From positions 620,001 to 684,000 of the forward strand of contig NZ_UCNW01000008.1 in NCBI RefSeq assembly GCF_900474185.1: DNA of 64,000 nt, written 5' to 3'. The translations under genes and the position numbers were made by a program. The notes beneath the pieces were generated by a model, which ran no database searches, was not told the DNA's origin, and was given only the letters and a program-made list of their open reading frames with translations. Positions 27,810-34,736 of this stretch are shown here, piece by piece. Each line of letters starts with the position of its first letter. Positions within the stretch are counted from its first letter, which is position 1. The DNA comes from Synechococcus sp. UW69. GTDB taxonomy: Bacteria; Cyanobacteriota; Cyanobacteriia; PCC-6307; Cyanobiaceae.

Positions 27810-29498
27810 ATGGCCAAACTCCTTTCTTTCTCTGACGAATCCCGCAGCGCCCTTGAGCGGGGTGTAGATGCACTCGCCGATGCAGTGCGCGTCACGATCG
27901 GCCCCCGGGGTCGCAACGTTGTGCTCGAAAACAAATTCGGCGCACCCGACATCGTCAACGACGGCGACTCGATCGCACGCGAAATCGAACTGGATGATCC
28001 GTTCGAGAACCTCGGCGCCAAGCTGATGCAGCAGGTGTCGTCAAAGACCAAAGACAAAGCCGGAGACGGCACCACGACCGCAACAGTCCTGGCTCAGGCC
28101 ATGGTGCGGGAAGGTCTGCGCAACACAGCTGCTGGCGCAAGCCCCGTGGAACTCCGCCGTGGCATGGAGAAAGCCGCCGCACAGATTGTTGCGGGACTGG
28201 GCGAGCGGAGCCAGGCCGTCGCCGGCGATGCCATTCGTCAGGTGGCCACGGTGAGCTCCGGGGGTGACGAAGAAGTCGGTCAGATGATTGCGGAGGCGAT
28301 GGACAAGGTGAGCACCGATGGGGTGATCACTGTTGAGGAATCGAAATCCCTGGCAACGGAACTCGAAATCACCGAAGGCATGGCCTTCGACCGCGGTTAC
28401 AGCTCCCCTTACTTCGTCACTGATGCCGATCGTCAGGTCTGTGAATTCGAAAACCCACTGATCCTGCTAACGGACCGCAAAATCAGCACGATCACAGATC
28501 TGGTCCCCGTGCTGGAGACCGTTCAGAAAAGTGGATCACCTCTGTTGATCCTCTCGGAGGAAGTGGAAGGCGAGGCTCTGGCAACGCTTGTGATGAACAA
28601 GAGCCGTGGGGTTCTGCAGGTGGCCGCTGTTCGGGCTCCCTCATTCGGAGAACGTCGCAAGGCAGCCCTCGCCGATATCGCCATCCTCACCGGCGGAACG
28701 CTGATCAGCGAGGACAAGGCGATGACCCTCGACAAGGTGACCCTCGAGGATCTCGGTAAAGCGCGCCGCGTCACCATCAGCAAGGAGAGCACCACGATTG
28801 TCGCCACGGACGACCATCGCCAGGCCGTGAGCGAACGCGTTGGCGCGATCCGACGTGAGCTGGAGGCCACCGAATCCGACTACGACCGCGAGAAGCTCAG
28901 CGAGCGGATCGCCAAGCTGGCCGGTGGCGTTGCAGTGATCAAGGTCGGTGCCCCGACGGAAACGGAATTGAAGAACCGCAAACTGAGAATCGAGGATGCC
29001 CTGAATGCAACCCGTGCCGCTATCGAAGAGGGCATTGTTGCCGGCGGCGGCAGCACATTGCTGCAACTCGCCGACAGCCTGAACTCGCTGGCGTCAAGCC
29101 TCAACGGCGACCAACGCACCGGTGTGGAGATTGTGCAACGGGCGCTGACCGCACCGATTCATCAGATCGCTACCAATGCCGGGCAGAACGGCGATGTTGT
29201 GATCGCTGGCATGCGCAGCAGTGGCCAGGGATTCAACGCCCTCAGTGGTGCTTATGAAGACCTGATGGCGGCAGGCATCGTCGACGCCGCAAAGGTGGTG
29301 CGTCTGGCTGTGCAGGATTCGATCTCAATCGCCTCTCTTCTAATCACGACCGAGGTTGTGATCGCCGACAAACCGGAACCTCCAGCACCTGCTCCGGCAG
29401 GAGACGGCGATCCCATGGGTGGCATGGGTGGAATGGGCGGCATGGGCATGCCGGGAATGGGTGGCATGGGTGGCATGGGCATGCCCGGAATGATGTGA
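27810..29498 (+). CDS. groEL: Chaperonin GroEL (monocistronic copy)
   Basis: 562 aa from ATG 27810, full length. It has the ATP-site motifs GPRGRNVV and [15 protein letters not shown], the apical region, and a C-terminal Gly-Gly-Met tail in two blocks, the usual disordered tail. No groES lies upstream, and no CIRCE inverted repeat was found in the 130-nt leader, so this looks like the second, groES-less copy known from cyanobacteria. The frame upstream to 27765 is not conserved. It meets nanE stop-to-stop at a TGATCA-rich palindrome. Confidence 0.96.
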
Positions 29499-29509
29499 TC
29501 AGCTGATCA
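29496..29509. repeat. 14-bp palindrome at the groEL/nanE junction
   Basis: TGATCAGCTGATCA is a perfect palindrome that contains both stop codons of the convergent genes. It has no T run, so it is a weak terminator candidate. Confidence 0.6.
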
Positions 29510-30188
29510 TTCCCTCGCGATAAGCGGTCACCTGGAGATCCACTCCGGTGATCGCCGTCCCAACGACCACGGTGTCTGCACCGGCCTGCAACGCTGAACG
29601 GGCGTCGGCCGGTGAGGAAATTCCCCCCTCACAGATCAGGCGCACAGAGCTGGGAAGGTCTGCGCGGAGCTGGGGGAGAAGATCAAGCGCAGGTGGGCGC
29701 TGCTGCGCTGTCGCCTCCGTGTAGCCGTAGAGCGTGGTCCCAACCCAGTCACAGCCAAGTTCGGCCGCACGCAGTCCATTGTCGAGCGAATCCACGTCAG
29801 CCATCAGGGGAGCACGCAGCTCATCACGGGTGCGCTGCACCAACGTGGCAAGATCCTGACCAGCAGGCCGCTTACGGGCTGTAGCGTCAATCGCGATCAC
29901 ATCGGCACCTGCAGACCACACAGCCTGGATCTCTTTCCATCCCGGGGTGATGTACACGGAACTATCGGGGAACGTGCACTTCCACAAGCCGATGATCAAG
30001 GCATCTGGGCAGCGACGACGCACAGCACCAATATGTTCAGGGCTTTCCAAGCGCACACCGACTGCCCCATTTCGCAGGGAGGCTTCGGCCATGGCAGCGA
30101 TCACATCAGGGTGGCGCATCGGCGAGCCTTGTGGTGCCTGCACCGAAACGATCAGCCCCTGATCAAGGGATTCAGGGTTCGGAATCAT
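29499..30188 (-). CDS. nanE: Putative N-acetylmannosamine-6-phosphate 2-epimerase
   Basis: 229 aa TIM-barrel protein. Family features are LIVSVQAPQGSPM at the start, IIGLWK, the catalytic Lys/Asp surrounding VIAIDATARKRP, MADVDSLDNGLRA, and the phosphate-binding ICEGGISSPADAR and VVVGTAIT. It interconverts ManNAc-6-P and GlcNAc-6-P. No sialate lyase (NanA) or kinase (NanK) is nearby, so its role here is uncertain. It is the last gene of the ctaA-ctaB-ABC-repeat unit. Confidence 0.88.
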   Translation of the reverse strand: MIPNPESLDQGLIVSVQAPQGSPMRHPDVIAAMAEASLRNGAVGVRLESPEHIGAVRRRCPDALIIGLWKCTFPDSSVYITPGWKEIQAVWSAGADVIAIDATARKRPAGQDLATLVQRTRDELRAPLMADVDSLDNGLRAAELGCDWVGTTLYGYTEATAQQRPPALDLLPQLRADLPSSVRLICEGGISSPADARSALQAGADTVVVGTAITGVDLQVTAYREGMIS

Positions 30189-30193
30189 GGTGT

Positions 30194-30898
30194 TCAGGCA
30201 GCCTTCTGGAAATCGTCATCTTCTCGGCTCGGAAGCCAACGCCGAAGCGAACGCGGAGTAGTGATGGGGGGAGCCGGCACAGGACCAGCAGTGAAGGTCT
30301 GTTGAAGAGCCGTCCCTTCAACCAACAACTCTTCCTCCGCTACAACCTCTTCCTCAACCAACAACTCTTCCTCCGCTACAACCTCTTCCTCAACCAACAA
30401 CTCTTCCTCCGCTACAACCTCTTCCTCAACCAACAACTCTTCCTCCGCTACAACCTCTTCCTCAACCAACAACTCTTCCTCCGCTACAACCTCTTCCTCA
30501 ACCAACAACTCTTCCTCCGCTACAACCTCTTCCTCAACCAACAACTCTTCATCCGCTACAACCTCTTCCTCGGCTACAACCTCTTCCTCCGCCAGGATCT
30601 CAGGAGCGAAGCAAGGCTCCTCAGCAACCGCAATCTGCAACGGTTCAACAGCAGGAGAAACGCTGGAGTCAGCCACTGTGGAACTGAACTCACGAGTGGA
30701 ACTGAACTCACGATCCGAGACCGTCGGCTCAGGCAAGCTCAGGTCAACATCACCAGCGCTTTTAAATCCGTAGCGGTGAACCCACTGACTAATCAGGCGA
30801 GACAGCAAGGCCTCATCACTTGTGGTCCTGGCCTCCTGGATCTGAAGGGCCAGAGCGTTCTGTCGACGCGACGGCTGCTGAAACGGGGAAGAAAGCAC
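30194..30898 (-). CDS. Acidic tandem-repeat protein of unknown function
   Basis: 234 aa. The first 65 residues form a possible helical domain (ALALQIQEARTTSDEALLSRLISQWV). A Ser/Thr linker follows, then a block of about seven 12-residue repeats of VEEEVVAEEELL, and a Pro-rich basic C-terminus ending DDDFQKAA. The repeat block is strongly acidic with hydrophobic pairs every few residues, so it may form amphipathic helices or stay extended. It starts 4 nt after the ABC permease and ends 5 nt before nanE, clearly in the operon. I do not recognise a family. Confidence 0.75.
   Translation of the reverse strand: MLSSPFQQPSRRQNALALQIQEARTTSDEALLSRLISQWVHRYGFKSAGDVDLSLPEPTVSDREFSSTREFSSTVADSSVSPAVEPLQIAVAEEPCFAPEILAEEEVVAEEEVVADEELLVEEEVVAEEELLVEEEVVAEEELLVEEEVVAEEELLVEEEVVAEEELLVEEEVVAEEELLVEEEVVAEEELLVEGTALQQTFTAGPVPAPPITTPRSLRRWLPSREDDDFQKAA
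30320..30571 (-). repeat. Seven tandem copies of a 36-bp unit (12 codons)
   Basis: Unit boundaries on the plus strand are 30320, 30356, 30392, 30428, 30464, 30500 and 30536. The first six copies are identical base for base. The seventh differs by one base (C to A at 30551, giving Asp for Glu). A partial copy follows to about 30593. The unit is a multiple of three, so copy changes keep the frame. Confidence 0.97.
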
Positions 30899-30902
30899 GG
30901 AT

Positions 30903-31766
30903 TCAGGAGAGTTTGCGGTTGAGCAGCGGGCGAATCACAAGAAACAGCCCGATGGTGAGGAGCAGCAGGATCAGCAGGCAAGTGGTGCCGGTGACATCCC
31001 CGTAGGGGGCCTCCAACAAAACTGCCGAGAGGTCAAGAGGACCTTGGTAGGCCGCTCGAATGGGTTCAATCGCGAAGGTAAGAGGATTCAAGGCCGCAAG
31101 CCACCCCAGCCAGGTCGGCATGAAGGACAAAGGAGCAAGGGCCGTGCTGGCGAAGAGCAAGGGCAAGTTGGCCACAAAAATCACGGCGATCAACTCGATG
31201 TGGCCAGGCAAAGCGAACGCCAACCCAAGGCTGAGGGCTGTCACGGCAAACACCAGGAGCAGCAGCGTCACCAGCACCAAAACAAGGCCGCTGACGCCAG
31301 GCCACCCGTAGCCGAGCACGGCCGCCGTGCCCATGATGACCAAACTCTGCAGCAGGCTGAGCGCGGTGATGTAGATCACCGACGCAAGCACGATGGAACT
31401 GCGGCTTCGCAGGGGTGCCACAAGTAAACGATTGAGGAAGCCGAATTCGCGGTCGAACATCACCGGTAGCCCGGCGTTCAGAGCACCGCTGAATGCCGTG
31501 AAGACAATGACTCCAGCACCAAGAAAACGGCCATAGCTCATCCCGCCTGGGAGCAGGCCCTCAGGGGCGTTAGCGAAGAGCGCGCCGAACAGAATCAACC
31601 AGATCAATGGTTGCAGAATCCCAGCGATCAAGGTCGAGGGACGACGCATTAACTGAAGAAACAAACGCCGGGTAAGGGCCCAAGTCTCCTGGCTGAGCTC
31701 AGCGAAGGCTCCGGATTGCTGCTGCTGGAGAGCAATTGATGCTGTGGGGGAGGTCATCATTGGCAC
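30903..31766 (-). CDS. ABC-2 type exporter permease
   Basis: 287 aa with about six membrane segments. The ABC-2 pattern is visible in RPSTLIAGILQPLIWLILFGALF, FDREFGFLNRLLVAPL and the late LNPLTFAIEPIRA. It pairs with the ATPase immediately upstream (the ATPase ends at 31767 and this starts at 31766). The substrate is unknown. The pair resembles DrrAB/NodIJ-type exporters. Confidence 0.9.
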   Translation of the reverse strand: MPMMTSPTASIALQQQQSGAFAELSQETWALTRRLFLQLMRRPSTLIAGILQPLIWLILFGALFANAPEGLLPGGMSYGRFLGAGVIVFTAFSGALNAGLPVMFDREFGFLNRLLVAPLRSRSSIVLASVIYITALSLLQSLVIMGTAAVLGYGWPGVSGLVLVLVTLLLLVFAVTALSLGLAFALPGHIELIAVIFVANLPLLFASTALAPLSFMPTWLGWLAALNPLTFAIEPIRAAYQGPLDLSAVLLEAPYGDVTGTTCLLILLLLTIGLFLVIRPLLNRKLS

Positions 31767-32780
31767 TCAACGCATGGATTGACGCTTTTCCTTCTTGACG
31801 TCGCGCTGGCCTGCGATGGCCAGTTCAGCATCCATCAGGGTGCGTCCTGTTGCCTGAAGGTAGACATCATCGAGGCTTGGACGACTTTGGGCCAAGGCAA
31901 AGACAGGGAGGCCTGCACCATCAAGGGTTTGACGAAGTTGGTCGATCACGGGCCCACCTTCAATCACCAGGTTGAGGGAAAACCCCTGAGCTCGGTTCAC
32001 CACCACCTCAAGAACCCCATTCAGCGGTTCAAGCAGCGCACGCACCTTGGCCGCCTCTTCAGCAGTGCTGAACTCTCGGACCCGGAGGGTGACGCGATCA
32101 CCCCCAAGCCTTTGCTTGAGCTGGTCCGGAGTGCCTTCAGCTATCACCCGACCGTCATCGATGATCGCCATCTGATCAGCAAGTGCCTCCACCTCTTCCA
32201 GGTAGTGACTGCTCAGAAGAACAGTGGTGCCCTCCTGAACCAGCTGACGCAACAGTTGCCAGATGGCACTCCTGCTCTCGATGTCCAATCCAACGGTGGG
32301 TTCATCAAGCACGAGCAACCGGGGACGGTGCAGCAAACCGGCCGCCAGATCGAGCCGACGACGCATGCCACCGGAATAGGTACCGCAGCGGCGATCAATC
32401 CAGTCGCCCATGGCGAGGCGTTCAATCAGATCAGCAATTCGGGTTTCGCGATCCTTCCGCTGCAAGTGGTACAGATCACCTTGAAGCTGCAGCAGTTCTC
32501 GACCGCTCAGAATCTTGTCAATAGCTACCTCTTGGGCCACATAACCCATGAGTTGGCGGATGGCTCTTGGCTCCGCCAGCCCGTCCACACCGCCCACATG
32601 TACGGAACCGCCATCGGGGGCGAGCAAGGTGGCCAGAATGCGCATGGCCGTTGTTTTACCGGCACCATTCGGGCCAAGAAGCCCGTAGAGGCACCCTTCA
32701 GGAACGGTGAGATCAAGCTCACGTAGAGCCGTAACCGAGCCGTAGGACTTGGAAATCTTCCGCAGTTCAATCAACGCCAT
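31767..32780 (-). CDS. ABC exporter ATP-binding protein (DrrA-like)
   Basis: 337 aa. Walker A GPNGAGKTT, signature YSGGMRRRLDLA, Walker B LLVLDEPTVGLD and the His-switch SSHYLEE are all intact. A C-terminal domain of about 100 residues follows, as in the DrrA/daunorubicin-resistance-like group. It energises the adjacent ABC-2 permease. It lies 50 nt downstream of ctaB; the location behind heme A genes suggests, but does not prove, a link with oxidase assembly. Confidence 0.92.
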   Translation of the reverse strand: MALIELRKISKSYGSVTALRELDLTVPEGCLYGLLGPNGAGKTTAMRILATLLAPDGGSVHVGGVDGLAEPRAIRQLMGYVAQEVAIDKILSGRELLQLQGDLYHLQRKDRETRIADLIERLAMGDWIDRRCGTYSGGMRRRLDLAAGLLHRPRLLVLDEPTVGLDIESRSAIWQLLRQLVQEGTTVLLSSHYLEEVEALADQMAIIDDGRVIAEGTPDQLKQRLGGDRVTLRVREFSTAEEAAKVRALLEPLNGVLEVVVNRAQGFSLNLVIEGGPVIDQLRQTLDGAGLPVFALAQSRPSLDDVYLQATGRTLMDAELAIAGQRDVKKEKRQSMR

Positions 32781-32830: not shown

Positions 32831-33814
32831 TCATTGAATCCCCATGAGCAGGTAGAGAAGCTGCATCACCTGGTAAGCAAAGCCTGATGCAAGATCCGTT
32901 CGACTGAGAATCAGCAGCAGGCACAGACCGAACAGGTAAAGAATCGACCAACGGAACAGAGCCTTGGCATTCAGAAGGCTGTCGGGATCAAGAGAAAGTC
33001 GGTCGACGAGCTGCAGCAGCCGACCGTTGTAGGGAAGCAGCATCAGACCGTAGAAGACACCACCGGAGGGCAGGGCGAACACTCCCAAACCGCTCAGCAG
33101 GACGGTGATCCAGCCATAGGTCTTGATCGCCCGCGCTGTCACCACAGGGCCTTTGACGACCGGCAGCATCGGAATACCAACAGCGCGGTAGTCCTCGCGC
33201 AACAAAAGTGCCAACGCCCAGAAGTGGGCTGGCGTCCAGACCATCACCAGAGCGAACAGCCACCAGCCCCCGAGGCCAACATGACCGGTGGCGGCAGCAG
33301 CCCCCACAAGGGGTGGAATCGCCCCGGCAACGCCACCAATAACGATGTTCTGTGACGTCCGCGGCTTGAGCAGAGCTGTATAGAGCAGGACGTAACTGCA
33401 AAGACCGAGCAGGGACAGTCCGGCAGCGAGACAGTTCACGCCACTCACCAGCAACATCGCCGCTGCCAAAGTGCAGGCGATGGCTCCGGCGAACGCACTG
33501 GTGGGCGAAAGCCGACCGGAGGGAAGTGCCCGACCGCTGGTGCGGGCCATCCGGCCATCGAGATCCTGTTCCCACAAACAGTTCAGAACACCAGCGGCAG
33601 CTGAAGCGAGAGCTCCTCCCCCCAGGGTGCACACCAGCCGCGGCGAGGAGAGGGGCCAGCCCTCACTGAGAGCCATTCCCCCCAGAGTGGTGGCAAGCAG
33701 CAGAGGGATGAGTCGCGGTTTGGCGACTTCCAGCCAGGCTGGAAGTTTCACCCGCTTGCGGGAGGGAACCACCTCCTCACGGGTCGGACGAACGATTGAT
33801 GTGAGTTCAGCCAT
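32831..33814 (-). CDS. ctaB: Protoheme IX farnesyltransferase (heme O synthase)
   Basis: 327 aa from ATG 33814, which overlaps the ctaA end by 8 bp. UbiA-family membrane enzyme with an Asp-rich motif [15 protein letters not shown] and [19 protein letters not shown]. It adds the farnesyl tail to heme B for cytochrome oxidase. Several hydrophobic helices follow. The frame to 33889 is an upstream extension inside ctaA. Confidence 0.94.
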
Positions 33815-34736
33815 GACAGGCCTCCAACGAGGTGTCGTCGAGAACGACGGAACGGGACGGTGAGGGGCGGCCCTCCGGAGATCGGACAAGAAGCGCCGCC
33901 ATTAAGGCGATCAACAGGGCAGCCACGAGCTGGTGCGCAATGGTCACCGCGGGTTGCGACAGACCGAGGCGAAGGGTGAGGACACCAAGCGCCACCTGAG
34001 TCAGCACCAGGAGAACCACCCCAGCAAGCCAGGGCCACTGGCGGCGGGCCCAACCACCAGCCAGCAGTGCCGCTCCGGCGAAGACCAGCAGAACAACGGC
34101 CACCGGCATCGCCGTGACGCGATGGGAGAGAACCAGATGACAGGCCTCGCCCCCAGCGAGGCAACGCTGCCCTGCCCAAGAGGTGGCTAGTCGACCACCG
34201 AGAAGACATTGGGTAAAGACCGACAACAGCCCAAGCAGTGCCGAGATGCGCCACCAGAGCGGAGCCGCGACGGCAGCGGGATGAAGCAGGCGTTGCGTCA
34301 ACCCACTCAGCAGTGCAACAAGCGTGAGAGCAAGAGCCAAGTGGGCAGTCACGACACCCGATGGGAGCAGGTGGGTCACCGTCAAAGCACCCAGCCCTCC
34401 CTGCATGGCCACAAGAGCCATCAGGCCAGCCGCCAGCCAGGGCAGCCATGAAGGAAGCTGACGCCGCCGAACCGTCGTCGTCACAGCCATCACCACCAGG
34501 GCGATGCCGACGACGAAAGCGTCAAGGCGATGGAACCACTCCAGAAACACCTGAACATTCATCTGGCGACCCGGCAGAAATGAGCCAAAGCACAAAGGCC
34601 AGTCGGGACAAGCCAAGCCGGCCTCCATCACGCGCGTCGCACCACCGATCACCACCAAAGCGATGACGGCGACTACCAAGTGCGCCGATAACAACCCAAG
34701 ACGTCGACGAAGAGTCGACATTGAAGAAAGGATCAT
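33807..34736 (-). CDS. ctaA: Heme A synthase (CtaA/COX15)
   Basis: 309 aa with eight hydrophobic segments. Heme-binding His are in [27 protein letters not shown] and [10 protein letters not shown], two in each half of the duplicated fold. The Cys pairs ACPDWPLC and CLAGGEAC are the redox-active type found in CtaA. ATG 34736 has a GGAG eight bases upstream; an internal ATG lies at 34721. It oxidises heme O to heme A. First gene of the minus operon, divergent from coxB. Confidence 0.93.

Follow-up and report, generated by a model that had tools for sequence, protein, structure and literature searches.

A gene of Synechococcus sp. UW69 that lies directly downstream of an ABC-2 exporter permease encodes a protein that is conserved at both ends, and among its orthologs the intervening linker is a hotspot at which in-frame tandem expansions have arisen separately. 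Alignment, AlphaFold2 prediction, charge, and dN/dS gave the same picture of two conserved ends and a variable middle that is predicted to be disordered. The family is unnamed and belongs to a single order of cyanobacteria, for which "picocyanobacterial" is our own label. The explanation that we favor, with about even confidence, is that the gene encodes a soluble tether or adaptor with two anchors and a freely evolving acidic spacer. The window is the whole 64-kb stretch of DNA that was analyzed, and positions refer to it.

The gene, its tandem array, and its conserved ends

The gene and its segments are as follows.

30194-30898, minus strand: coding sequence of the two-ended linker protein, 234 amino acids, GTG start (ORF list)
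30749-30898, minus strand: conserved N-terminal segment, residues 1 to 50, motif SQWVHRYG (alignments, AlphaFold2, dN/dS of 0.17)
30278-30748, minus strand: acidic linker, residues 51 to 207, predicted to be disordered (net charge, pLDDT)
30197-30277, minus strand: conserved C-terminal segment, residues 208 to 234, TPRSLRRWLP, with the end KAA (alignment, tail count, dN/dS of 0.19)
30323-30538, minus strand: six identical 36-bp units (VEEEVVAEEELL x 6), silent sites identical too (unit-by-unit reading, TRF)
30539-30574, minus strand: seventh 36-bp unit (AEEEVVADEELL), with three nucleotide differences and two amino acid differences
30575-30592, minus strand: partial eighth unit, AEEEVV, on the gene-start side of the seventh (TRF array end, unit listing)
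30678-30713, minus strand: perfect 18-bp direct duplication, two copies, in the same linker as the 36-bp array (TRF)

An open frame is also present on the opposite strand (30131-30922 in the ORF list). The minus-strand frame behaves as coding, because dN/dS was low at both its N-terminal (0.17) and C-terminal (0.19) ends in five relatives of the same length.

The tandem array of six identical units reported in the first-pass annotation is real and was recovered both by TRF and by listing the units. However, the seventh unit, which had been credited with one change, has three nucleotide differences that alter two residues. TRF described the array as a 36-bp period with 7.6 copies, a 97% match, and a score of 506 at 30318-30592; the runner-up among the 13 TRF rows of the window scored 117. 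The proposal that the array expanded or was homogenized recently also held up. The array was missing from G023, the nearest genome among the 40 loci compared (ctaC 98% identical), in which the only repeat in the linker is an imperfect 54-bp one of 2.6 copies, and in another clade (g17, below) units are alike within a genome and different between genomes. The search for the array was extended to 33 further genomes from the genus, a comparison set of one genome per species, and gave no close match, with G023 and G029 at 71 to 72%. Within the window's own genome, a draft of 15 contigs, the array DNA had a single match outside the gene (53 bp, 81%).

The N-terminal 45 to 50 residues could be aligned throughout the family. 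Residues invariant in a 12-member alignment were R12, L16, L35, Q38, H41, R42, and G44 on the N-terminal side and P210, P211, T214, P215, and S217 to L222 on the C-terminal side. The motif H-R-x-G was invariant across 46 diverse N-terminal segments, and two exceptions were seen among orthologs (G093 and G285). In the AlphaFold2 model of the window protein, helices at residues 11 to 26 and 29 to 43 form a predicted hairpin that is followed by a short helix (46 to 50), with block pLDDT values of 86 to 95 over residues 11 to 50 and mostly 42 to 53 in the linker. The same N-terminal helices, together with a low-confidence helix in the middle, were predicted for a short ortholog. The models were built on 14 sequences and had mean pLDDT values of 58 (window protein) and 66 (short ortholog), which tempers the support that they lend to a tether.

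The C-terminal segment consists of a Pro-rich stretch, an LRxWLP-like motif, and a tail in which A-S or A-A are the usual last residues; 138 of 156 orthologs terminated in A-[SAC] or in a variant of the form [KR][TV]S, and the tryptophan was invariant in 36 aligned segments. The C-terminal motif was net positive in 131 of 137 orthologs and the N-terminal segment in 107. Pooled dN/dS was 0.17 for the N-terminal part, 0.54 for the linker, and 0.19 for the C-terminal part (10 pairs from five equal-length relatives, leaving out an unrelated genome whose protein happens to have the same length). Thus, the ends are constrained by purifying selection in the relatives tested, and the linker is more relaxed.

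It is possible that the R-R-W motif at the C terminus binds the membrane as an amphipathic segment and would thereby hold the protein, as a peripheral tether, beside the permease. The cationic charge of the motif, its invariant tryptophan, and its hydrophobic moment, which had a median of 0.72 across 155 segments of nine residues, are consistent with this possibility. However, the motif is short and usually ends in proline, no helix was modeled there, and its moment was modestly above that of shuffled segments (median z, 1.19; above zero in 125 of 155). Thus, membrane binding of this kind seems unlikely. The modest amphipathicity also counts against the two-anchor tether, as does the frequency of the motif elsewhere, which was not clearly above the control: in 8 genomes, a degenerate DNA pattern for the motif matched 46 times, including 6 times in the linker gene, compared to 35 times for the reversed control pattern.

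Tandem expansions in the linkers of orthologs

Orthologs were read at 137 loci and at 19 more (156 in total), all just downstream of an ABC-2 permease; three loci without a full frame were left out (two of the first set and one of the second), at least two of which (L014 and L234) were cut by a contig end. Linkers in the 137 orthologs were 15 to 375 residues long (median, 99), and the longest proteins, among the 19 additional orthologs, reached 495 amino acids. The linker was net negative in 132 of the 137, and that of the window protein, with a net charge of -0.34 per residue, equaled the lowest rounded value. The other five linkers were not net negative, and the least acidic linkers, with up to +0.05 per residue, are a point against an acidic spacer as a general feature of the tether.

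Tandem arrays (TRF, score 50) were detected in 42 of the 137 orthologs, 24 of which had 2.8 copies or more. The best array periods in these 42 were multiples of three without exception, although some arrays were slight, such as a proline run with a period of 3 (G036) or an array with a period of 6 (G272). Repeat units were unrelated between lineages: examples are 24 bp with 13.8 copies (ELKEQEPL type), 84 bp with 2.8 copies, and 60 bp with 2.9 copies, and one clade carries arrays of 42 to 45 bp. When arrays were merged over 40 loci of ∼12 kb each, there were 25 in 22,143 bp of the gene versus 59 in 468,808 bp of flanking DNA, a nine-fold difference in density (1.13 versus 0.126 per kb); 9 arrays in the gene and 20 in the flanks had scores of 100 or more. 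Arrays in the gene exceed chance.

The expansions can spill past the linker, which is a further point against the tether. In a 345-amino-acid ortholog (L158 in G224), the linker and C-terminal motif are duplicated in tandem (429 bp, 99%), so that the protein has two RRW motifs, and two arrays among the 137 orthologs start at the end of the N-terminal segment (TRF).

Copy number was compared within clade g17, small genomes (1.5 to 1.7 Mb) that, judged by their size, are probably Prochlorococcus. An open frame with HRFG was present at 28 of the 34 loci read, three of the 28 being cut by a contig end. Between genomes in which the 450-bp ends of the permease gene were 97.6 to 99.1% identical, the number of units ranged from 1 to 7; for example, G098 has 7 units and G635 has 2, with permease 3′ ends that are 98.4% identical. 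Units were counted by motif, so that divergent units were missed, and in one genome, with a count of 8, some bases of the array are masked. By eye, units resemble each other more within a genome than between genomes, the pattern that slippage or unequal recombination with homogenization would give. A fixed copy number, which had been named as evidence against the first reading of the array, was therefore not seen among these relatives. The absence of an orthologous N-terminal domain had been named in the same way, but the alignments show such a domain in proteins that lack the 36-bp repeat.

The repeat had also been proposed to bind metal, lipid, or cations. Strongly acidic units in the window protein and some of its relatives are what a repeat binding metal, calcium, or another cation might contain. 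However, binding of metal or lipid by the repeat is unsupported because repeats share no sequence between lineages, and the five linkers that are not net negative also argue against the proposal, which we regard as very improbable. The repeats are not a fixed-motif binding module, and the window array is one of many separate solutions to the linker.

A third conserved segment, like RFTALLKDCLDDV, was found in the linker of 30 of the 156 orthologs, from several genera (for example, L076, 5001-5399, residues 68 to 96), a count that is not independent because 18 of the 30 carriers supplied the seed. No such segment was found in the window protein. Linkers with this middle motif were less acidic (median, -0.09; n = 29) than those without it (median, -0.16; n = 124), and in the short ortholog that was modeled, which has the motif, the low-confidence helix covers residues 74 to 88. 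The middle motif may be ancestral and may have been lost where acidic repeats expanded. A tentative extension, which we consider rather less than probable, is that the protein is a picocyanobacterium-specific adaptor that originally had three parts, an N-terminal hairpin, a RFTALLKDCLDDV-like helix, and the C-terminal motif. The middle helix would have been lost repeatedly and the spacer rebuilt by separate acidic expansions, and linker length and charge would serve as a tuning knob that evolves fast while the two partners stay fixed.

Distribution of the family and resemblance to known systems

Within the genus, a search with the whole protein gave matches in 28 of 34 genomes, and within the family, a search with the alignment gave matches in 166 of 300. 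For the N-terminal profile, matches were found in 111 of the 120 near-complete genomes examined from the order; in the class, 61 of 388 genomes had a match, 59 of them in the same family. The other two matches were marginal (E values of 2e-4 and 7e-4) and were attributed to chance: one lies inside a 528-residue frame that resembles, by eye, a secreted M16-type peptidase, and the other starts at a stop codon and extends into the beginning of a frame named, also by eye, as thioredoxin-like. Genes of the exporter operon were not found in the stretch fetched around either match. Sixteen named records with the gene include Synechococcus and Prochlorococcus; genus labels of the other relatives are inferred.

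The window protein matched no Pfam family at an E value of ≤1, including the UPF0302 domain found in YpiB/ReoY, and no NCBIfam model came near its cut-off. PHROGs, a database without a cut-off, gave nothing at an E value of ≤0.1 for the 12 members of A1, and Foldseek gave nothing at an E value of ≤0.001 against the PDB, the single match having an E value of 7.5. A literature search, judged from titles and the openings of abstracts, returned no publication on the gene, and in PMC2823733, which has a section on clade-specific proteins, no entry could be mapped to it.

When profile A2 was compared to the PDB with hmmsearch, the best match was to residues 146 to 174 of the UPF0302 chain 3do9_A (E value, 9e-4; next best, 0.37). 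We take 3do9 to be a relative of YpiB and the matched element to be the IDEAL domain of YpiB. One of 46 members matched the corresponding Pfam model, PF08858, with an E value of 1.9e-4; the other 45 were unmatched at an E value of ≤1. A consensus-like sequence scored 17 bits, below the Pfam cut-off of 22 bits, and a search of the window's genome with the PF08858 model missed the gene at an E value of ≤1. According to PMC7286690, YpiB is the Bacillus subtilis counterpart of ReoY, and deletion of ypiB or clpC raised MurAA about 12-fold. If the linker protein were an adaptor of this Firmicutes type, which is needed together with ClpC for MurA turnover, the N-terminal hairpin might bind a client or a protease chaperone, and the A-S end, common to most orthologs in one variant or another, could be a recognized tail. 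In the alignment to 3do9, it is the first helix and the turn in which the sequence pattern is alike. However, the linker family falls below the curated cut-off, the element is N-terminal, UPF0302 was not found, Foldseek gave no structural match, and a short helical hairpin could easily be convergent. The resemblance is thus a lead and not a classification, and we think it unlikely that the protein is an adaptor of this kind.

Other proteins have a comparable layout. The N-terminal part of SSB is an OB fold. PMC7145534 and PMC10164576 describe SSB as having a disordered linker and a short conserved C-terminal peptide that binds partners. The linker protein likewise has a conserved N-terminal part, a linker predicted here to be disordered, and a short conserved C-terminal peptide, but it has no OB fold (no Pfam match, and a helical hairpin in the model), its C-terminal motif is cationic whereas the SSB tip is acidic, its linker is often acidic, and no homology was detected by any search made. 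The length of the FtsZ linker varies between species, and this disordered linker is described as joining the folded part of FtsZ to a conserved C-terminal peptide. The linker protein has a similar, predicted arrangement but no tubulin/GTPase domain (no Pfam match), and its helical N-terminal part, at ∼50 residues, is far smaller. Bacterial proteins with in-frame variable-number tandem repeats share the identical units and whole-codon changes in copy number; in contrast, the repeats here are confined almost wholly to a linker that is flanked by conserved ends, and different lineages have different units.

Operon context, gene loss, and a possible role as a tether

The neighbors of the gene are as follows.

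29499-30188, minus strand: downstream neighbor, nanE-like N-acetylmannosamine-6-phosphate 2-epimerase (NF002231, 273.6 bits, cut-off 189)
30903-31766, minus strand: upstream neighbor, ABC-2 permease (PF01061, E value of 3.9e-33)
31767-32780, minus strand: ABC exporter ATPase (PF00005, E value of 1.1e-27)
32831-33889, minus strand: ctaB, heme O synthase (NF003349, 377.6 bits, cut-off 246)
33807-34736, minus strand: ctaA-like heme A synthase (NF045570, 25.3 bits, below the cut-off of 550; named from a weak match and context)

The gene context given in the first-pass annotation was confirmed, with the ctaA-like gene, ctaB, the ABC ATPase and permease genes, the repeat gene, and the nanE-like gene all on the minus strand. 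In the window the permease stop is 4 nt ahead of the start of the repeat gene, and the same gap was found in 75 of 137 orthologs when the start was set at the first possible codon after the permease stop. A permease was present at 190 of the 193 loci of >500 bp, several of which can come from one genome. The synteny and small gaps are partly built in, because orthologs collected with profile searches were read downstream of the permease and the nearest start was taken. The upstream side is the constant one, since the order ctaA, ctaB, ATPase, permease was identical in 40 of 40 loci and nanE was undetected downstream in 8 of the 40. Short tandem repeats that encode a GGM-rich sequence are also present at the end of the neighboring groEL (window positions 29414-29492), and arrays with periods of 9 to 33 bp occur near the corresponding position at other loci (for example, L099 and L105).

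The position of the gene right behind the permease, in so constant an order, suggests that its product could be an accessory subunit of the exporter. The N-terminal hairpin would dock on the cytosolic side of the ATPase or permease, and the C-terminal motif would bind the membrane or another enzyme, for example, one of heme synthesis. However, some genomes that retain the exporter lack an intact copy of the gene. A search of 116 class genomes recovered the permease in 115, with a single match in all but one of these, and the linker gene had no convincing match outside the family, a distribution that weighs against the tether as well. In 11 of 20 loci from cyanobacteria outside the family (L262 to L281), a short gene with a secreted-like protein start lies just after the permease; by eye, these genes (e.g., L263, L269, L273, L277, and L279) look unrelated to the linker family.

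Fifteen genomes were picked for lacking a match, and the permease was found in 10, which were the 10 near-complete ones. Two of the 10 contain a divergent open ortholog (G103 and G040). In the other eight the gene is deleted, unrecognizable, or broken beside an intact permease: just 34 to 100 bp follow the permease in G112, G062, and G171; G030 has no recognizable gene there; G061 and G102 have a decayed remnant; and the copies in G241 and G643 are interrupted by stops. Frames were also disrupted in three further g17 genomes (G225, G215, and G280), for which assembly errors are also possible. All five genomes with interrupted copies or disrupted frames belong to g17, and the gene looks broken or decayed in several members of the clade with the greatest variation in repeat number seen. 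The gene is therefore not an obligate exporter subunit, because the exporter persists where the gene is lost and is found throughout the class. The earlier suggestion that the product is a binding partner of the exporter is thus a possibility suggested by gene position, and an accessory subunit is, in our estimate, possible though on balance doubtful.

The same losses, together with the disrupted g17 frames and the linker dN/dS of 0.54, might indicate a nearly neutral, decaying gene in which the linker drifts and repeats pile up since little depends on it. This is an unlikely account, given that dN/dS is low at both ends, that the gene is found in nearly all near-complete genomes of the order, and that the best array periods are all multiples of three.

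We consider a two-anchor tether the best explanation of these observations. Ends that are conserved in alignment and in dN/dS around a middle that is not, a negative linker between mostly positive ends, confidently predicted N-terminal helices with low pLDDT in the linker, unrelated in-frame arrays in many orthologs, copy numbers of 1 to 7 beside nearly identical permease ends, and the regular presence of the permease all argue for it. We infer that the hairpin at the N terminus and the Arg/Trp motif at the C terminus may each bind something, either two partners or one partner and the membrane. The linker would set the distance between the ends, and charge repulsion would keep the chain soluble and extended, so that its composition and rough length would matter and its sequence would not. 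One partner might, more tentatively, be the ABC-2 exporter encoded just upstream, with the linker protein as an optional accessory.

The window protein has no Pfam or NCBIfam assignment, although the order carries relatives of it in 111 of 120 near-complete genomes, and Synechococcus and Prochlorococcus are among the records with such a relative. Constant ends joined by more than 100 different linkers, some of which differ mainly in repeat number, amount to a natural experiment on what disordered acidic linkers need. If the exporter is one of the partners, the protein would provide a handle on an ABC exporter that was found in 115 of the 116 class genomes searched. If the tuning-knob reading is true, some of the most abundant phototrophs would carry a fast-evolving linker.
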